The notes beneath the pieces were generated by a model. The model searched no databases, had not been told where the DNA came from, and saw nothing but the letters and a program-made list of their open reading frames with translations. Of a stretch of DNA of 30,278 nucleotides, positions 21,151 through 30,278 are shown piece by piece; the stretch's first letter is position 1; each line of letters opens with the position of its first letter. A program made the position numbers and the translations under genes. This DNA comes from a virus: IMG/VR virus record IMGVR_UViG_3300033144_001811, positions 1 to 30,278 of that record. One strand, given 5' to 3'.

Positions 21151-21541
21151 AACGATCACAGAGATGGATCTCAAGGCATTAGGCAAATCAGCCAAGGTGA
21201 TAATGGATCCAGAGGCCCGCGAGGTTACGGGATTTGCAGAACTGGTCGACCTTCTCAAACAGGTATTGGCCGACAGTTCCAAGCGTACCCAAGCAGACCT
21301 CGAGCGTTCACAGTCGCAGCTCGAGGTGCTGGCTACACTGCAGAAGATGATTCGTGCAAATGGGACTAAGTCCCACGTTTCACATGAAACAATAGATTTG
21401 AAGCCACTCAAAGAAGTTCTGTTACAGATACATGCCAGCAATGATCGGCCGCCAGTCGTTTACAAGTTTGACATCAAGCGCCAAGAAGGCGGCGCGATGT
21501 CTCAAGTAATTGCAACCCCACTTCCACCAACCTTGAACTAA
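21143..21541 (+). CDS. Conserved phage protein with central linker and C-terminal KFDIKR domain
   Basis: Protein of 132 residues. A helical N-terminal part (about 25-70, LVDLLKQVLAD and RSQSQLEVLATLQKMIR) is joined by a polar linker (about 72-86, NGTKSHVSHETIDLK) to a C-terminal domain ending VVYKFDIKRQEGGAMSQVIATP. The ending pattern F-D-x-x-R-x-x-x-G-x-x-x-x-V-x-A-x-P is common to small phage proteins near tail genes. The coding DNA of the linker contains two adjacent palindromes, one resembling parS (21361-21391). It overlaps the ejection-protein gene by eight bases. Its function is unknown; a virion accessory or assembly chaperone role is possible. Confidence 0.7.
   Translation: MDKTITEMDLKALGKSAKVIMDPEAREVTGFAELVDLLKQVLADSSKRTQADLERSQSQLEVLATLQKMIRANGTKSHVSHETIDLKPLKEVLLQIHASNDRPPVVYKFDIKRQEGGAMSQVIATPLPPTLN
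21361..21391. promoter_or_regulatory. Adjacent palindromes: 15-bp TGGGACTAAGTCCCA and a parS-like site
   Basis: TGGGACT-A-AGTCCCA (21361-21375) is a perfect odd palindrome. The next 16 bases, CGTTTCACATGAAACA (21376-21391), match 14 of 16 positions of the chromosomal ParB site TGTTTCACGTGAAACA. Differences are the first base and one of the two central bases. Both lie in codons for the linker of the 132-residue protein, where sequence constraint from protein structure should be low. They are therefore candidates for a cis-acting site embedded in a gene. ParB binding is unproven. Confidence 0.5.
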
Positions 21542-21555
21542 AAGTGAGAAATACT

Positions 21556-21702
21556 ATGGCTCATTCCAAACATGAAGTAACCGCTAAATCCAATCCAAAT
21601 TTCAAGCCAGACCCAAACGCCCGTCATGTCTATGACGAGAAAAAGGGCGTGTTTCGTTTGGTGACTACCACAAAGCAATCCAAAGATAAGAGGAAAGACT
21701 GA
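21556..21702 (+). CDS. 48-residue basic hypothetical protein
   Basis: Reading MAHSKHEVTAKSNPNFKPDP at the start, with a Lys-rich end (TTKQSKDKRKD). It has a clean frame from 21556 to a TGA that shares two bases with the next ATG (TGATG), which argues for real translation. The upstream AGTGAG is a weak ribosome-binding site. No membrane segment, cysteine or known motif is present. The middle (ARHVYDEKKGVFRLV) may form a beta hairpin. The function is not recognised. Confidence 0.55.
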   Translation: MAHSKHEVTAKSNPNFKPDPNARHVYDEKKGVFRLVTTTKQSKDKRKD

Positions 21703-22151
21703 TGGCACAAGGCGACCTGACGCTGTTCAACGAGTTTCGTACACAGGTACTCGAAGGCGAACACGACCTCAACGCAACAGACACGATTAAAGTTGCGCTG
21801 ATTACTAATGCCACGGTTCCAACGGCATCCACCACAACCCCGGTTCTTGCCGACTTCACTGAGGTAACGGGCACGAACTATACGGCTGGCGGCGCGACAG
21901 TCACGACTCCAGTTGTGACAAACGTATCGGGGCCAACGTACAAGTTTGATGGTGACAACATTTCTTGGACCCAGAACGGGGCTGGTCCAACGGATATTTA
22001 CTACGCCATTTTGTACAACGACACCCAGGCCGCTGACATGGCAATAGCGTTCATCGACATGACTGTTGATTCGGGCACGACGCCAATTTCTCTTGCAGCC
22101 GGAAATGTGGCCATCAACTGGAATGCCTCTGGAATATTTTTGCAGGCTTAG
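21702..22151 (+). CDS. Phage tail-region beta-sandwich protein
   Basis: Protein of 149 residues of a family widespread in tail modules. It has an N-terminal helix (FNEFRTQVLEGEHDLNA), then DTIKVALITNATVP, TNYTAGGATVTTPVV, a Trp strand (DNISWTQNG) and a final AGNVAINWNASGI. The layout D-x-x-K-V-A-L, Y-x-x-GG, W-x, A-x-x-Y-N-D is shared with many phage structural proteins near fibre genes. It is likely a virion component at or near the tail base, function otherwise unknown. It resembles, in size and general plan, the next gene product, and the two may be distant relatives. Confidence 0.72.
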   Translation: MAQGDLTLFNEFRTQVLEGEHDLNATDTIKVALITNATVPTASTTTPVLADFTEVTGTNYTAGGATVTTPVVTNVSGPTYKFDGDNISWTQNGAGPTDIYYAILYNDTQAADMAIAFIDMTVDSGTTPISLAAGNVAINWNASGIFLQA

Positions 22152-22154
22152 GCT

Positions 22155-22562
22155 ATGGCAGGAATTACCCCACTTGAAGGGCAGGATTACATAGCCGAAG
22201 TTTTGTATTCGCAGGCGCTGGTTGCGCAGACGCTTATCATGGGCCTGTTTGTGGATGTCGCGGGCGTTTTGGTTGAGGCGTCGGTATGGGCCTCCATCAA
22301 CGAAGCGTCCGGTGGCGCCTATGCAGAAAACACACTGACAGCAGGTAGCTGGACTGTTTCATCCGGTGGCGTTGCTACTTTTCCGTCAGTCTCATGGGTT
22401 GCCACAGACTCATGGTTGCTGCCGGTATATGGATATTACGTTCGCACTGGTGAAGGTACGCCGCGACTTTTGCACTTTGAGTATTCGCCGAATGGCTCAA
22501 AGACAATGACCGAGAACGATATTTACACGGTAGACCCAAGCTCGAACACGGAATCAACGTGA
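22155..22562 (+). CDS. Phage tail-region beta protein
   Basis: Protein of 135 residues. Recognisable family marks are GLFVDVAGV near the start, NEASGGAYAENTLTAGSWTV in the middle and a VYGYYVRTGEGTPRLLHFEY segment. Similar proteins (EA-x-G-Y-A, L-x-x-x-x-W-T, GY-Y-V) accompany fibre genes in many phages. The ATG lies four bases after the previous stop, and its own stop overlaps the GTG of the large fibre gene (GTGA), so the product is probably made in proportion to the fibre. It could be an adaptor or small capping protein; that is inference. Confidence 0.68.
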   Translation: MAGITPLEGQDYIAEVLYSQALVAQTLIMGLFVDVAGVLVEASVWASINEASGGAYAENTLTAGSWTVSSGGVATFPSVSWVATDSWLLPVYGYYVRTGEGTPRLLHFEYSPNGSKTMTENDIYTVDPSSNTEST

Positions 22563-25500
22563 GTGTTCATTACGGCGAAACGGTATCCAACCCAGTAACC
22601 GTTACCCCGTCACCGCCGACGATGACGATGACGGCCATACCGCAGGACGTTACCGGGCTCACGAACAACCAAACGGACATTAGTGCCGGTCTGGACTCCA
22701 TGAGCATGTCGCCGCTTTCCACGCAGGTTGGCGCCAATGTCATTATCCGTCCCAATTCCCCGACGATGACAATGAGTGGGGAAACACCCTCCATTGTGTT
22801 CACCCCGGTACAGGGAAATATTGACGTTGATGCGAGTACCGGGCTGATGACGATGACGCCGATCAATGCCAATGTGGTCGCGCCGATTGCGGCCATTCTT
22901 GATTTGATGTCACTTGGCGGGGTGTCCAGTTTACCGAGTGCGCCGGGTAATACTTCCGACATTTTGTACAACCCGAACAACGATCTGTATTACACGGTCA
23001 TCAATGGAACGAACGGCAATCAGGATGTCTATTCAGTGTCGGGTGAGACATGGACGCATGAGGCAGATGTCTCGCGGAATCTTTCGCATTCTGATACAGA
23101 GGGGGTTTGCTGGTTACAACAGGGTGGCAATCGTTTTATGATGTGCGAGGAGAGCAGTGACAGCACTGTTTATGTTTTGGATTACACGGGTGGTGGCGCA
23201 CAGCAAGAGCATCACTTACCGGCTCGCGGGGTGTCCAACAAGGGTCTGGAAGGGGTCAGTTGGGCATCAGAGGCGCAACTTGCACAGGGCGCCCAACCTG
23301 CCGGCGCACACGGTAATGGTGCGTTTTATGTCGTACAGGAAGATCAACCACAGCGGGCCTATCGTTGCGAAATGCCGCCATACGATGGTCTGGATTATTC
23401 TTGGGACTATCCAGCCGATGACGGTCAGGCTTTGTTACAAATCACCGAGTTTACTGCCCCAGATGGCAGCAATTTAGAGGATTACCTTGAAAGCGTTGGT
23501 TGTAGCGATATGGCAGCAGTACTCTATGATCCACGAAATGGTGATGGCAGGTTGATCGTGGTTGCAGAACAGGCCAGACAGCTTTTTGAGTTCCAGATCA
23601 ATGCAGACAAATTAACCTATGTAGCCGATATTGCAATTGATTCTGAATTTCAATGGGAAGGTATTTGCCAGAACCCGGACGGTGATTACGTCATTGTCTC
23701 TGAGGGTAATTCCGGGGCGCCACGGATTCAAATTTTGACTTACACAGGAGATGTCATTGAATCCGCACCGTCTATAGCCGTTATGCAACACGTTACGATG
23801 GACAGCACTGATACGCTATCGGTAACAGCGATTCTCGACAGTGGTGGTGCGGCATCCTGGTATCTGAAAAAAGCACCCCCATCGGCCACCATAAACGTGT
23901 CCACTGGTGATATATCCTGGAACCCTGATGATGATCTTCCACGGGGTCAGGCTGTTTCATTCAGGATTGGTTGCTGCAACTCGTTCGGTCACGCAACACC
24001 AGTGAGCTTGATTGTTCATGTGAATTTTCCCGGACAAACCGGGCAGATTCATGTCACGGGTGAGGGTGTCATCAATATAAATATTGGACCTGCTGCAGAA
24101 CAGATTTTAGGTAATGATACGTTGATCGTAACCGGCACCAACCGCAACATTGCCTCCACGAATGACGGTGCAGCAGATGATCCCGATTACATCAACACCT
24201 TCGTTCGGGCCAATACAGGTGGTGGACAGTTCATAGCGCCGGGAGGAACGAACGCCCAATTAACGACAATCTGTGCCCAAGACCCGTTCCTGGTTGTCTC
24301 GGGTGCGCCGCATGCCGGGTTTCCTCACTGGACTAATTTCGGCCTGGACATGAGTGGTGGACAAAATGGATACGTCAAATTCATGGATTACACGATCCGA
24401 GAGGTAGGGCGCAAGGTGGCAGATATTGCTACTGACAACACCTTCTTTGATGGCATGGGATTCTACGATGCCGCGAACGAGTTTGAGGAAATTAACGGTC
24501 GCAAGCCAGCAACCAATTTAGATGCCGATGCCGGGCTAACCTCAAGGGCCGTTGTAGCCTTTTCAGGTGCCAGTGAATGCCTTACCGAGCTTTGTCATGT
24601 TGGCGGTAACGGTCGCTATATGTTCCAGGATGGATCAGGTGCTGGCGACAATAATATACGTCGATGGTGTGTAGCTCGTCCCGACGAGCATCATGGAGAT
24701 CAGCCCCGTGGTGGCTTCCTCATGTACTCCGTAAAGGGCGGCAGAGACTACAACAACACCTTGATAGACGGGGATCAGGAGGATTTTACTCCATTTTTTA
24801 AGTCGGTTGCCGGGGCTTATGCGCTTCCCGCAACTGGCAATGAATCTCGTCCAGAAGATCAGGAGCGACATCGTTGTGGAACTCTGAATACGCATATGTG
24901 TGTATTCGGATTGCTGGACGGTAGTGGCGGCGAGTTGCAGAGAGCGAGCTGGGATGACCATTGGGCATTTGATGTTGAAAGTCAAAGCGCACCGCAGTCG
25001 GGTAATAATTGCGATGCAATCGTCCAGTCGTCCAGTCAGTACTGCAATATCAATCGAGCCAGTATAGGCCGCGTCTGGAATCACAATCTTGCTACTCGGG
25101 TTTTTATGCGCGGTAGTAACAACAACATGACCAACTCCATTCTGTCGGAGATTGGCTGGAACGGTTCTGTCACTGTAAATATGGGCAATATGTTCAGTTC
25201 GATCAACTCCTTCACTGGCACGATTTACGCCTTCGCTGGCACGATTGGTGCTGGCGTTACACCTACCCGCACAACCAATCCACACGATAATGGTTGGGAA
25301 TATTTGCCGCGTATTGAGGCCGGCAGCACACTTGATGTGGCAGGCGAGGGCGCCCAGGCAGCATTCCTGAAAGGTAAACCATTCCATCGCAAGGGCGACC
25401 CTGATGAGGCTATGAACACCAATATCCCGGCTTGGCCTCACCCTATGGAAGATGTGTTCAGGCAGCACAATCGTAATTATTTCAAGACTGGGCTGGTTAA

Positions 25501-25897
25501 GAGGTTAGATGAGTTCAACGAGACTGGAACGCTGGACGGAAAGCGTGGCTTCTGTGTTGATAATGAGACATATTCGGAATATATTTGGGGTTACTTGGGA
25601 TTCATGTTGCCGCCAATGCGAATCGCCTATGCTGAATCGGGCGGTGTGGTGACGTTCGTCAATTTTCCACTGGAGTCCTTCCGCGAGGCCAACCGCACCG
25701 GCTGGCGCATCTACAAATCAACCGACTTGGAAAACCCGGTGGCAAGCGTTGCCTCTCGAACACGCTCGGTGGACGTTTCCGGATTGACCTCCGGTTCCTA
25801 TATCATCACAAATACATTCAACGCCTACTTGCCATCCAACTGGATGAACGGTGACGAGTCTGGTCCTTCAATTCAAACATTATCGGTGACAATCTAA
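22559..25897 (+). CDS. Large tail fibre/spike with TMTM repeats, SdiA-regulated-type propeller and beta-helix
   Basis: Protein of 1112 residues with a GTG start (GTGA overlap). Residues 19-110 hold four repeats centred on TMTM, SMSM, TMTM and LMTM (21, 47, 69, 97). Residues about 126-396 look like the SdiA-regulated (YjiK-type) beta-propeller: HSDTEGVCW, SNKGLEGVSW, DMAAVLYDP, VVAEQARQLFEF, QWEGICQNPDG and IVSEGNSG occur in family order. Residues about 408-490 resemble an Ig-like domain. Residues about 500-1030 look like a beta-helix or pectate-lyase-like body rich in N, G and aromatics. The C-terminus (about 1040-1112) resembles a fibronectin type III-like end. The protein likely binds or degrades a host surface polymer. 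The propeller call is the most specific. Confidence 0.78.
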   Translation: MSVHYGETVSNPVTVTPSPPTMTMTAIPQDVTGLTNNQTDISAGLDSMSMSPLSTQVGANVIIRPNSPTMTMSGETPSIVFTPVQGNIDVDASTGLMTMTPINANVVAPIAAILDLMSLGGVSSLPSAPGNTSDILYNPNNDLYYTVINGTNGNQDVYSVSGETWTHEADVSRNLSHSDTEGVCWLQQGGNRFMMCEESSDSTVYVLDYTGGGAQQEHHLPARGVSNKGLEGVSWASEAQLAQGAQPAGAHGNGAFYVVQEDQPQRAYRCEMPPYDGLDYSWDYPADDGQALLQITEFTAPDGSNLEDYLESVGCSDMAAVLYDPRNGDGRLIVVAEQARQLFEFQINADKLTYVADIAIDSEFQWEGICQNPDGDYVIVSEGNSGAPRIQILTYTGDVIESAPSIAVMQHVTMDSTDTLSVTAILDSGGAASWYLKKAPPSATINVSTGDISWNPDDDLPRGQAVSFRIGCCNSFGHATPVSLIVHVNFPGQTGQIHVTGEGVININIGPAAEQILGNDTLIVTGTNRNIASTNDGAADDPDYINTFVRANTGGGQFIAPGGTNAQLTTICAQDPFLVVSGAPHAGFPHWTNFGLDMSGGQNGYVKFMDYTIREVGRKVADIATDNTFFDGMGFYDAANEFEEINGRKPATNLDADAGLTSRAVVAFSGASECLTELCHVGGNGRYMFQDGSGAGDNNIRRWCVARPDEHHGDQPRGGFLMYSVKGGRDYNNTLIDGDQEDFTPFFKSVAGAYALPATGNESRPEDQERHRCGTLNTHMCVFGLLDGSGGELQRASWDDHWAFDVESQSAPQSGNNCDAIVQSSSQYCNINRASIGRVWNHNLATRVFMRGSNNNMTNSILSEIGWNGSVTVNMGNMFSSINSFTGTIYAFAGTIGAGVTPTRTTNPHDNGWEYLPRIEAGSTLDVAGEGAQAAFLKGKPFHRKGDPDEAMNTNIPAWPHPMEDVFRQHNRNYFKTGLVKRLDEFNETGTLDGKRGFCVDNETYSEYIWGYLGFMLPPMRIAYAESGGVVTFVNFPLESFREANRTGWRIYKSTDLENPVASVASRTRSVDVSGLTSGSYIITNTFNAYLPSNWMNGDESGPSIQTLSVTI

Positions 25898-26628
25898 TGG
25901 CAATCCCAGTAGTAGAAGGATTCGCAGTATCTTCCGATGCTAGTAGTGTCTCCAGTCTTGTTGTAGCGAAGGCGACAGGTGTAGTGGCTGGCGAAATTCT
26001 ATTGATGCTCGTCATCAACGAACGGGCCGATGTAACTACAGATACCTATAACGTTCCGACTGGATGGACCAAACTTGTTGCTCTGGTTTCGACCAGTAGT
26101 TCTCTAGATTGTTCGGGTATGTGGTACTGGCGAGAAGCTAGTGGAGATACTGGTGATGATGCGCCAACAGTTACTTGGACGGGTGGCGCACGATGTATTG
26201 GTTGGTATATCCGGGTGTCGGGTGCTGATGTTACGACCCCCATCAACATCGCTGGCGTTTTTGCGGCAGATATTGGAACCGAGATAATAGTACCGTCAAT
26301 TACTACTGATGCCGCTAATTGTTTGGCCTTTTACGGCGTTACATTTGATGGTGGTGATGGGGCACCATTCAGTGTAGCGGGTACGGGTTGGACGGAATCT
26401 GCCGAAGCTACGACTGGTGGTAGGTCATCCGGTTGCTGGGGTACAAAGGAGCAAGCCGCAGCAGCAGCCACGGGCACGGCAACCGTCACTATCGGAGGCG
26501 TTTCTGATGGCCTAATAGGAGTTCAGTTTGCTATTAACGAAGCTGCAGGGGCTGGCGGTGGACCAACGCTATTACAAACACAAAATTATCAAGGCATGAA
26601 CCGAATGTCTGGAGGGTTTAGAAAATGA
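25897..26628 (+). CDS. Tail fibre-associated beta-sandwich protein
   Basis: Protein of 243 residues, MAIPVVEGFAVSSDASS at the start. The sequence LVVAKATGVVAGEILLMLVI, PTGWTKLVALVSTSSSL, WYWREASGDTGDDAPTV and a late TATVTIGGVSDGLIGVQFAI follows a beta-sandwich family seen in fibre regions of many phages (P-x-GW-T, G-D-x-L-L). A Gly-rich spacer ends in a short basic tail. It is coupled by TAATG to the large fibre and by ATGA to the next. It probably forms a trimeric fibre component or receptor-facing tip. No catalytic residues are evident. Confidence 0.72.
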   Translation: MAIPVVEGFAVSSDASSVSSLVVAKATGVVAGEILLMLVINERADVTTDTYNVPTGWTKLVALVSTSSSLDCSGMWYWREASGDTGDDAPTVTWTGGARCIGWYIRVSGADVTTPINIAGVFAADIGTEIIVPSITTDAANCLAFYGVTFDGGDGAPFSVAGTGWTESAEATTGGRSSGCWGTKEQAAAAATGTATVTIGGVSDGLIGVQFAINEAAGAGGGPTLLQTQNYQGMNRMSGGFRK

Positions 26629-27851
26629 TTATTACGGCAGGCGCAACCGACAAGTCGGTGTACTTTTACATTACTGGCAATGCAGCACACGCAAGCCCTG
26701 GTGATCCTATAACTGGACTTTTGTTCTCTGACATAGAGACAGGCGGCTCAGCGTCCTATGCGCGACAAGGGGCGGTCAGAACAGACTTCGCTTTGATTAC
26801 CCTGGCATCTGCATCTGCCGCACATGCAGACGGTGGATTCATTCTTGTCGATGACACGAACATGCCCGGGGTTTATCGGTGTGATGTGCCTGATGCTGCA
26901 TTTGCAACGGGGGTCGATCAGGTGATTGTTGATTTGTTGGTGGCCTCGGCAAATAACGCCAACGTCGCGCCGCTGTTGATTGACATTACAGACGTTGACC
27001 TTCGTGATGCGGTCAGGGGCGGCATGACAGCACTACCGAACGCAGCAGCAGATGCAGCGGGTGGTCTACCAATATCCGATGCCGGTGGACTGGCGCTTGA
27101 TACACAGTTAGCGGCTACCAATGAGATCACTGCGGCACGTATGGGCGCCCTTACCGATTTGATTGACGGTGGCAGACTGGACCTGATTATCGACATCATC
27201 GCGGCAGATACGACAACGGACATCCCGGCACTGTTGTCGACAATCACTGGCTATCTCGACACTGAGATCGCCGCGATACTAACCGACACTGGTGAGCTGC
27301 AAACGGACTGGGCTGATGGCGGCCGACTTGATTTAATACTGGATGCTGCCAGTGCTCCAACAGCAGCAGCAGTTGCTGATGCAGTGTTGGATGAGGCGTT
27401 GAGTGGGCATGTTGCTGCCGGGTCGCTGGGTAAGGCTTTGGCCGATGTTGAAACCGATGCTACGGCCATTCTCGCTGATACTAACGAGTTACAGGGCGAC
27501 GACGTTCCTACCCTTATCGCAACGGCGCAAGCCGACTTGGACATCATTACCGGGGGCGCAGGTGTTGTTCTGGATACTGATGCAATCACGGCCGCAAAGA
27601 TGGCCGACAACTGCATTACCTCTGACCAGTGGGCAACCAGTGCAACCACGGCTATATGGGCGCAGATCATTGAAACGGTTGGCTCGAGAACCGCGCAACA
27701 AGCACTGTCCATTATCCTGGCAGCAGTAGCGGGTGTAACGGCAGACTCTGGCGCCACCATTAAGGATGCTGCTGGCACCAACACCCGGATCGCAGCAACG
27801 ATAAACGGTTCAAATGAGCGAACCGCTATGACGCTAACGCCATCGTCGTAG
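26625..27851 (+). CDS. Tail fibre protein with N-terminal BppU-like and repeated GGRLDLIL segments
   Basis: Protein of 408 residues. Residues 1-120 form the common fibre N-terminal domain (ITAGATDKSVYFYITGN, SYARQGAVRTDFALITLAS, GFILVDDTNMPGVYRCD and VDQVIVDLL). Residues about 130-340 have GMTALPNAAADAAGGLP followed by heptad-like repeats DLIDGGRLDLIIDII, DTGELQTDWADGGRLDLIL and DTNELQ, a rod typical of phage fibres. The C-terminus (QQALSIILAAVAGVTADSG and NGSNERTAM) is the trimer-forming end domain that also ends the next protein in a related form. It is the likely shaft of a receptor-binding fibre. Confidence 0.8.
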   Translation: MIITAGATDKSVYFYITGNAAHASPGDPITGLLFSDIETGGSASYARQGAVRTDFALITLASASAAHADGGFILVDDTNMPGVYRCDVPDAAFATGVDQVIVDLLVASANNANVAPLLIDITDVDLRDAVRGGMTALPNAAADAAGGLPISDAGGLALDTQLAATNEITAARMGALTDLIDGGRLDLIIDIIAADTTTDIPALLSTITGYLDTEIAAILTDTGELQTDWADGGRLDLILDAASAPTAAAVADAVLDEALSGHVAAGSLGKALADVETDATAILADTNELQGDDVPTLIATAQADLDIITGGAGVVLDTDAITAAKMADNCITSDQWATSATTAIWAQIIETVGSRTAQQALSIILAAVAGVTADSGATIKDAAGTNTRIAATINGSNERTAMTLTPSS

Positions 27852-27854
27852 GCC

Positions 27855-29105
27855 ATGAATTACTGGCACTCTGGTTATTGGCAAGCCAATTACTGGCACT
27901 CAGACTATTGGGGTGAGTTTGCAGCGCCGTCAAATGTTGGTGACTATTGGGGTGCCAATTACTGGCATACAAACTACTGGGCATCAGGGTACTGGGCGTT
28001 CGTTGAGGGCTTCACCACCACCATAAGCCAGACCAGTTCCCCGGTAATGACGATGATCGGGCAGCCGGTCACGATCGACATATCCCTGTTCGTTGCAACC
28101 ACCACGCCGACCATGACAATGACGGGTCAGGCGGTCGATGCGTCCAATGATGTAACGGTAGAGCAGGTTAGTACTCCGACGATGACTATGACCGGCGTTG
28201 GCATATCCGCTGATGCTGGCGAGTATTACGTTGCAGACATAGGCATTACGGTGTTCATGGCGAGTAACTTTGACTTTACCGACACCATAAACGCCAGCAG
28301 TCCGTCGACCATGACCATGAGCGGCAACATGGCGAACATCGAGGAAGGTGGTGCCCTGGTCGTCGGCGTGACCTCAACGCCCGGAATGACGATGAGCGCA
28401 TTGCCGACCGCTGTCAGCAACCCTGTTGTCATTATGCCGCTAACTCCAACCATGGCGATGACCGGCTTCGATGTGGCCACGGGATTTGGCACGTTAATCA
28501 CAGCAACATCTGAATCAATGGCGATGAGTACGCTACAAACAAACGTGTCTGGCGAGAGCGATGTCAATGAGCTTGATGTCACGTTCGATACCATGATTAT
28601 GTCCGAACTCAATGCGAGCGTCTTGGGTACAAATGTATCCACAGGTGCTGGCGATATTTACAATGCTGCTGCAGCGTTCCCGACTGGATCAACGGTTACT
28701 ATTGTTTTGTATGACCCCATTTTATTGACCGCCATACCGGTTGATAACGATTCATGCCTGGAGGTGGAGAGCACTGGGACGTATGTGTGGAACTCCAGCA
28801 AGCTGACTGTTGAGCCGACCGATTATCAGGAATACATTTGGAGTATGACTGACGGGATAACCTTTGAGGACGGAGTAATCCGTGTAAATGCTATGGGCGT
28901 AAATGACTTGATGACGTATGTCATGGAGAACGGCGAAACCTATGCTGAGCAAATTCGGCTAATTCGGGCCGATGCGGCTGGTACTGTAGTGCAGAATGCA
29001 AGTGGAGCCTACGGCGTTCGTGATGCTGCTGACAGCAAGGACAGGATCACCAGCGGCCCCGGTGCAAACAACGGCAGAACTGTCACGGCTACTGATGGCG
29101 CATGA
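27855..29105 (+). CDS. Fibre protein with YW pentad repeats and TMTM repeats
   Basis: Protein of 416 residues in three parts. Residues 1-47 have Tyr-Trp pairs at exact steps of five (3, 8, 13, 18 and again 31, 36, 41, 46), separated by a short linker. Residues about 60-262 carry eight TMTM-type cores (64, 86, 109, 152, 177, 199, 221, 246) at 22-25-residue steps, with one weak copy near 133. Residues about 275-416 form the fibre end domain (GETYAEQIRLIRADAAGTV, then VRDAADSKDRIT and NNGRTVTATDG). The start lies three bases after the previous stop with a weak ribosome-binding site. It is likely a second fibre or a connector to the shaft. Confidence 0.72.
   Translation: MNYWHSGYWQANYWHSDYWGEFAAPSNVGDYWGANYWHTNYWASGYWAFVEGFTTTISQTSSPVMTMIGQPVTIDISLFVATTTPTMTMTGQAVDASNDVTVEQVSTPTMTMTGVGISADAGEYYVADIGITVFMASNFDFTDTINASSPSTMTMSGNMANIEEGGALVVGVTSTPGMTMSALPTAVSNPVVIMPLTPTMAMTGFDVATGFGTLITATSESMAMSTLQTNVSGESDVNELDVTFDTMIMSELNASVLGTNVSTGAGDIYNAAAAFPTGSTVTIVLYDPILLTAIPVDNDSCLEVESTGTYVWNSSKLTVEPTDYQEYIWSMTDGITFEDGVIRVNAMGVNDLMTYVMENGETYAEQIRLIRADAAGTVVQNASGAYGVRDAADSKDRITSGPGANNGRTVTATDGA
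27858..27995 (+). repeat. DNA repeats encoding YW pentads
   Basis: AATTACTGGCACTC occurs at 27858-27871 and 27888-27901, with a third partial copy AATTACTGGCAT at 27957-27968. GACTATTGGGGTG occurs at 27903-27915 and 27942-27954. These underlie the two blocks of four Tyr-Trp pentads. The near-identical DNA suggests recent duplication and offers a route for copy-number change. Confidence 0.8.
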
Positions 29106-29281
29106 GCACTCACTATGAATCGTCACATTATGGAGGCACTCACTTTCTGTCGACGCATTACGGAAGGATTACGGACGATCACGTTCATCCCCCAGGCACA
29201 AGGCGTCGCCGGCAGATTCTGGAAGACGATGAGGTTATCATGGCCATCATCGTTGCCTTTCTACAGATGAAGGATCAGTAA
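29102..29281 (+). CDS. 59-residue protein with HY pentad repeats
   Basis: Starts in an ATGA overlap with the fibre gene and ends in TAATG with the next, so both ends are well placed. The N-terminal 20 residues, MSTHYESSHYGGTHFLSTHY, hold His-Tyr or His-Phe pairs at residues 4, 9, 14 and 19, the same step of five as the Tyr-Trp pairs in the preceding protein. A short turn (about 30-38, PPGTRRRR) leads to an acidic and then hydrophobic helix (IMAIIVAFLQMKDQ), perhaps a membrane or packing helix. No family function is known to me. The shared period suggests it pairs or co-assembles with the YW protein. Confidence 0.62.
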   Translation: MSTHYESSHYGGTHFLSTHYGRITDDHVHPPGTRRRRQILEDDEVIMAIIVAFLQMKDQ

Positions 29282-30278
29282 TGGCACTGCAAGATTGCAT
29301 CAACAAATTCAAAGGCGGGATCAGCGACAAGCAGGAACGCTCCTTGATGAATGCGTTGGCCAACGGAATGACCGATGAGCAGGCGGTTCGGGCGGTGCAG
29401 CTCATGGCTCACCAGAACGTCGTCGACATTGCCAGTCGTGCTCGCGATGAGGGTGCGGTTCTGGCGCCAGTCACAAACCCAGTGACAGAGCTGGTTCGCT
29501 TCCAGTCCAAAAAACTGGGGTCTATCGCGGAACGGAAAACTGAGGTAAAGCAGGAGCTGAAAGATCTATCCCGTAGACACGGAGATCAGACTATAGCTAT
29601 CAATAAACTCAGCTATTACGGCGTTGATGATGGTGTAAGGAATGACATCAGCGATGACAAGGTGCTGATGGATATTTTGCTGAAAGTCTTGTGGCAGGAC
29701 GAAGAGGCAAAGGCAAAGCTGGAACTCTTTGGCCTGTCAGGCAAGGATCAGTTTGAGCTATTTGATAATTTCCGGGCGCTACAGGTTGAGCGGCAGGAAA
29801 TAGTTGATGAGATGAGCAAGCTCGATGCCGAGCTAAAGCGTATCGATGAACAGGTCAACGTCATATTCTCAGGCACTGGTAAGCAAACCCTGTATCAGGC
29901 TGACATTCCAAAGCTGCAGGTACTTCACAACATCTCAGCCGAAAACCTTGGACTCGCTGACGGCCTTGGTGGGCTCGCAGTTCCATCACTGGCTGTAACG
30001 CAGCAAGGCGGTGGTTTGACTGGTTTTGGCAGAATCACATTTATCGGTACTGAGGACCTTGGTGATCCGAGCGCGGTTCCAATCTTTGATGCCGATGGCT
30101 ATACCGTTCGCTTTCCAATGCCAGATTACAAGGCGGCGAAAGCGGCCGATCGCGATGCGCTGTGGTATGAAGTTCTGCCCTACGTCATAAGGTTTGATCC
30201 AAAGGGAAGCCTTGGCTATTACCTGGATTTAGCTCTACGAGATCATCCCAATCCGCGAGATGCGATTTGGAAAATGTT
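29281..30278 (+). CDS. Large phage polyvalent-type internal protein (partial, 3' end beyond window)
   Basis: At least 332 residues, open at the window edge. The start MALQDCINKFKGG shares a base with the preceding stop (TAATG). Residues about 1-60 are helical, and residues about 160-200 are charged coiled coil (QVERQEIVDEMSKLDAELK). Then comes a pattern diagnostic of giant phage polyvalent or internal proteins: VLHNISAENLGLADGLGG, AVPSLAVT, LTGFGRITFIG and IFDADGYTVRFP. These proteins often carry enzymatic domains further on, and the continuation lies outside the window. It probably acts as an injected or internal protein. Size and later domains cannot be judged here. Confidence 0.85.
   Translation, partial: MALQDCINKFKGGISDKQERSLMNALANGMTDEQAVRAVQLMAHQNVVDIASRARDEGAVLAPVTNPVTELVRFQSKKLGSIAERKTEVKQELKDLSRRHGDQTIAINKLSYYGVDDGVRNDISDDKVLMDILLKVLWQDEEAKAKLELFGLSGKDQFELFDNFRALQVERQEIVDEMSKLDAELKRIDEQVNVIFSGTGKQTLYQADIPKLQVLHNISAENLGLADGLGGLAVPSLAVTQQGGGLTGFGRITFIGTEDLGDPSAVPIFDADGYTVRFPMPDYKAAKAADRDALWYEVLPYVIRFDPKGSLGYYLDLALRDHPNPRDAIWKM

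Follow-up and report, generated by a model that had tools for sequence, protein, structure and literature searches.

The window analysed here, a virus record of 30.3 kb (IMGVR_UViG_3300033144_001811; 30,278 nucleotides), encodes a 1112-aa protein in which a domain of the SdiA-regulated (YjiK-type) family PF06977, predicted to form a five-bladed beta-propeller, is followed by an Ig-like domain and a region of beta-helix type, and this order of domains recurs in proteins from two other viral contigs. From the position of its gene and its architecture, the protein would be a tail fibre, in which the propeller probably serves as a platform for binding the host surface. The layout of the gene and of the two small ORFs that precede it is given in Table 1.

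Table 1. Coordinates in the window of the fibre gene, its parts and the ORFs upstream of it.
Feature	Position	Strand	Remarks
Small ORF	21702..22151	+	Homologue (41.6%) directly upstream of the L199 fibre
Small upstream ORF	22155..22562	+	4-base overlap with the fibre ORF
Fibre-like protein with propeller	22559..25897	+	1112 aa, GTG start; most of the protein is homologous to other viral proteins
N-terminal beta-repeat stretch with TMTM motifs, residues about 7-111	22577..22891	+	Cluster of four TMTM repeats; no Pfam match
Predicted five-bladed YjiK/SdiA-regulated (PF06977) beta-propeller, residues 112-398	22892..23752	+	Profile, motifs, model, profile-profile comparison
Ig-like linker domain, residues about 399-492	23753..24034	+	Type inferred from sequence; kept in L189, L200 and L201; no Pfam match
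Right-handed beta-helix-type region, residues about 493-1024	24035..25630	+	Homology to relatives
C-terminal fibronectin-III-like segment, residues about 1025-1112	25631..25894	+	Alignment with L189, L200 and L201

A reading of the sequence alone had proposed that positions 22934-23746 (residues 126-396) encode an SdiA-regulated propeller fused into a phage tail fibre, citing six family-like motifs in the expected order and suggesting an HMM search as a check. That search returned a PF06977 match at residues 128-384 (window 22940-23710; E = 1.9e-7, 31 bits against a curated cut-off of 21 bits), spanning profile positions 21-243 of 249, and this was the sole Pfam family above its cut-off in the whole protein, the N-terminal beta-repeat, Ig-like and helix parts having no Pfam match; PHROGs and NCBIfam searches of the 1112-aa protein gave no match either. 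The six motifs (DTEG, NKG-x-EG, DMAAVLYDP, EQARQLFEF, EGI and VSE-x-N) were all found in order, in columns that agree with those of E. coli YjiK (NC_000913) and of Pseudomonas and plasmid homologues, and the set of motifs of the family itself (DxE, NxGxEG, ExxP, DxS, QxEG and VSExN) is complete apart from DxS, for which the window has DMA. In an alignment of the window propeller with 48 homologues, 17 of the 26 strictly invariant residues were retained, together with 25 of the 48 columns conserved at 90% or more, whereas 10,000 shuffles kept 3.5 such columns on average and never more than 12. A profile built only from four phage propellers (described below) matched the cellular YjiK profile with an E-value of 1.9e-29. 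Chance similarity was rejected on this comparison of profiles, on the shuffles and on the match of the phage-only profile to 3qqz given below. The window domain thus belongs to PF06977, a family of bacterial envelope proteins named for the regulation of its founding genes, an expression property; a structure has been solved, but to our knowledge there is no agreed function.

With E. coli YjiK (3qqz) the domain shares the family, by profile and by predicted fold, and the same invariant acidic and polar residues, which are retained in all four phage copies. Whereas the cellular members that we fetched are stand-alone proteins, the window domain, 18-26% identical to them, lies within a long phage protein and has about 14 extra residues inserted behind its NKGLEG motif. 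At positions 319, 336 and 339 the window propeller has alanine in place of a serine conserved in the family, and the ancestral site may therefore be altered.

The fold was predicted with AlphaFold2 from the 48-homologue alignment (pLDDT 77.4, pTM 0.82), giving five blades, four of them full and the fifth closed by the first strand, as counted from the strands listed for the model. Among solved structures, the best match of the model was YjiK itself (3qqz; Z 23.9, 2.4 Å rmsd over 224 aligned residues, Foldseek and VIA-align), followed by glutaminyl cyclases (Z about 20) and by the receptor-binding proteins of Staphylococcus phages phi11 (5efv, Z 17.7) and 80alpha (Z 17.6). The alignment consists of YjiK homologues, so the model leans to the YjiK fold, and prediction of a longer piece (residues 107-494) without an alignment gave nothing confident (pLDDT 36). 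Because such an alignment could bias the model, the profile of the four phage propellers alone was compared with solved structures; it returned 3qqz at 8.7e-14, the next best match having an E-value of 0.0037. The count of blades, which had been left to structure prediction, is thus five in the model. Neither of the two results that would have counted against the proposal, a missing HMM match and a fold other than a propeller, was obtained, and the proposal of a fused propeller is supported.

A search of viral sequences for the same fusion recovered it in two other contigs and an unfused version in a third. The first, L189 (IMGVR_UViG_3300032373_000080, a contig that also carries locus L199), encodes a 1481-aa protein with a PF06977 match at 2.3e-15, found in a scan with the helix half and 28.9% identical to the window fibre over 958 columns; the second, L201 (IMGVR_UViG_2886659792_000001), encodes a 1555-aa protein with a match at 6.5e-12, found in a scan with both halves and 30.3% identical over 1012 columns. 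Propeller, Ig-like domain and beta-helix follow one another in the same order in the window, L189 and L201. In the third, L200 (IMGVR_UViG_3300003691_000012), a 1414-aa helix fibre has repeats in the place of the propeller, and a stand-alone PF06977 protein (302 aa, 46.8 bits) is encoded directly upstream, its stop codon overlapping the start of the fibre gene (TAATG). The N-termini of the L189 and L201 proteins are related to each other and differ from that of the window protein, whose homology to them begins only at the propeller.

In a phylogenetic tree the four phage propellers grouped together against 52 other rows (98/85), a grouping weakened by long branches. A second PF06977 gene, downstream in L199 (10465-11355, 23.4 bits), encodes a protein with a secretory-looking N-terminus and does not clearly join the phage group. 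As to the viruses themselves, their backgrounds differ: L199 carries a phrog_1216 portal and a phrog_38 terminase, L201 an integrase and a phrog_332 adaptor, and phrog_2125 is common to the L200 and L199 records, whose viruses may on that account be kin; the large terminase of the window had no match in the L199, L200 or L201 viruses in a search run without a positive control. With the same propeller fused to, or encoded directly beside, the same second half in three other phages, the arrangement looks like a shared surface-binding module and not a one-off accident, a fibre module common to at least three kinds of phage.

A beta-helix after the propeller had also been proposed from the sequence; homology supports it, through relatives (vir555, L189-L196, L206 and L211) of which some match beta-helix models, while the window protein itself draws no Pfam call in this region. 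The region is 26% identical over residues 665-1018 to DBA35085.1 of Caudoviricetes sp. vir555, a virus that has been assigned to Methanomicrobiales, in which the homologous protein is likewise encoded behind the tail genes, as the last gene, but is 524 aa long, has a signal-like N-terminus and shows no propeller match. Further matches were found in several viral proteins and in cellular proteins, both with signal-like starts. The Beta_helix or Pel9A-like cut-offs are reached by two of the relatives, L193 and L211, and narrowly missed by L195; the Beta_helix match of L193 is at 612-767, which does not belong to the part of that protein that aligns with the window, and L211 has Pel9A-like and DUF1565 above their cut-offs and chondroitinase B just below. 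Glycosyltransferase genes adjoin L211 and L213, two cellular, secreted-looking relatives of the helix, and in L206, another cellular relative, Pfam fn3 is found at the position equivalent to the FN3-like segment of the window protein. Ten polar and aromatic residues (E677, R707, Y723, D737, Y915, E920, W959, E964, R996 and Y1008) are common to all 13 helix rows and two more (R686 and D709) to 12 of them; among these, R686, R707, D709 and D737 were noted with a view to a possible lyase or depolymerase activity. These relatives and conserved residues suggest that the helix half may bind or cleave polysaccharide. Where the cellular proteins have the lysine of an RYK motif, the window has Met, and any activity of the helix may have been lost. 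A 21-base tandem repeat (2.2 copies) is present at 25200-25245 in the part of the gene that encodes the helix.

The rest of the window encodes an Sf6-type small terminase, a head-tail connector, and Phage_capsid_2 and Bbp19-like proteins, together with a portal that matches those of Pelagibacter HTVC010P-type and other podoviruses and an 876-aa tail-region protein whose matches include Bordetella BPP-1. Relatives with portals up to 88% identical were gathered, and neither a PF06977 match nor a relative of the fibre was found in the 44 such records searched, many of which are fragments. Where these records extend far enough, several of them conserve the genes up to position 21541 as well as that at 29281, and the stretch of about 21702-27855 is replaced by unrelated proteins; the fibre ORF thus lies in a variable region behind conserved tail genes. 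Replaced stretches between conserved genes are typical of receptor-binding or host-recognition regions.

The TMTM repeats noticed ahead of the propeller are real: they form a cluster of four in the fibre ORF, and seven TMTM-type repeats are clustered in a 416-aa protein encoded at 27855-29105, which starts with YW-rich repeats. Among the loci compared for these repeats, no other had them. The last 75 residues of the 416-aa protein are conserved in L083 and L088. The last ORF (29281-30276, open at the window end) has a match at 2.1e-12 to the nuclease domain PBECR5 (Barnase/EndoU/ColicinE5-like) and is kept in several relatives.

Taken with the domain order and the recurrence in other phages, the location of the fibre gene in the variable region leads us to propose, as rather likely, an exchangeable modular host-recognition fibre with the propeller as surface-binding platform and the helix as a binding or depolymerising blade. 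In a fibre assembled on the virion, the N-terminal beta-repeats would serve to anchor the structure or to lengthen it. The YjiK-type propeller would come next as a platform, and beyond it an Ig-like hinge, the right-handed beta-helix and, as a short cap at the C-terminus, the FN3-like segment. Each blade opens with conserved acidic residues, and it is there that the propeller would bind its ligand on the host surface, a glycan that may be accompanied by a metal ion. The tip would thereby be kept at the envelope, where the beta-helix would bind or cut polysaccharide. The strongest argument that propeller and helix act together is their pairing as fused or adjacent genes. A metal is a fair candidate ligand because CarP of P. 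aeruginosa (PA0327) is a calcium-regulated propeller whose homologues are annotated as SdiA-regulated (PMC10574481).

Propellers are already known from phage receptor-binding proteins, and the YjiK-type domain would be a new variant. Gp45 of phi11 and the 80alpha protein (5efv, 6v8i) likewise place a five-bladed propeller in mid-protein, followed by beta domains, but the window protein has beta-repeats, an Ig-like domain and a beta-helix-type region instead of the coiled-coil stem and tower domains of phi11, and the two propellers are alike in fold only (10% identity). For the phi11 propeller, a platform, the holding of GlcNAc has been proposed, and PRD1 P2 and PhiKZ gp131C are further receptor-binding propellers (PMC4901313). 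The helix half would resemble tailspike depolymerases in that a region of parallel beta-helix type forms part of a phage host-recognition protein, although the window region draws no Pfam call and any depolymerising activity is putative.

The propeller might instead be a structural spacer or trimer platform that binds no ligand, with recognition confined to the beta-helix. Long multi-domain fibres do use Ig-like and repeat domains as spacers, the L200 fibre has repeats where the propeller would be, and the phi11 propellers make few mutual contacts in the trimer (PMC4901313). However, the acidic and polar residues of the family are retained in four divergent phage copies, more than a spacer needs, and L200 keeps a separate propeller gene beside its fibre, so we consider this reading unlikely. 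Glutaminyl cyclases as the next-best folds and secondary Pfam matches to Phytase-like (PF13449) would fit an enzyme, esterase/phytase-like or cyclase-like, acting on envelope material, but these matches all lie under the curated cut-off (in the window protein, 20.4 bits against 27.6), and we know of no demonstrated activity for PF06977; such a role is improbable. That the protein is secreted or host-modifying, as the secretory-looking N-terminus of the second L199 protein and the signal-like start of the vir555 helix protein might suggest, is improbable as well, since the window protein lacks a signal-like N-terminus, is encoded in the variable region behind conserved tail-region genes and shares its repeats with the neighbouring 416-aa protein.

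The repeated tie between PF06977 and a single type of phage host-recognition protein, by fusion or as a neighbouring gene, argues for a role in binding surfaces, and another kind of propeller would join the short list that phages use to touch their hosts. More tentatively, PF06977 propellers could be surface-glycan (or metal-glycan) binding modules, one of which phages have made into an exchangeable adhesin that is paired, by fusion or as a subunit of its own, with a particular beta-helix acting on polysaccharide; if true, the phage pairing would reveal the function of the bacterial family.

Single-protein scans of viral sequences and genomes with the propeller or the whole fibre returned nothing, the proteins being too divergent; a tblastn search of phage and plasmid records with the propeller was also negative, and none of the literature that we searched deals with PF06977 in a phage fibre. 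The YjiK matches in records labelled as phage, treated as likely bacterial DNA, lay in Salmonella contigs, in a Salmonella phage record of 1.5 kb and in a Pseudomonas phage record that is unverified and unannotated; this last record (phage Y10, OQ572411.1, L100 5001-5738) holds YjiK homologues without annotation, possibly through bacterial contamination. The motif pattern QxEG..VSExN retrieved one viral contig, with a near-bacterial copy (93% identity to a plasmid protein of P. aeruginosa), and since it missed L189, L200 and L201 it is no measure of the frequency of the domain. In that contig (L103/L202, IMGVR_UViG_2579779064_000009) the PF06977 protein lies beside phage-like ORFs, and the contig may be chimeric or host DNA. 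As candidate cellular donors, the best matches in 398 Pseudomonadota and 294 Planctomycetota genomes were set aside, looking like generic TolB- or PQQ-type propellers. The suggestion that the module was captured from a host stays plausible, although no close cellular donor was found and the phage propellers group apart; a capture would therefore be old, the module having since moved between phages.
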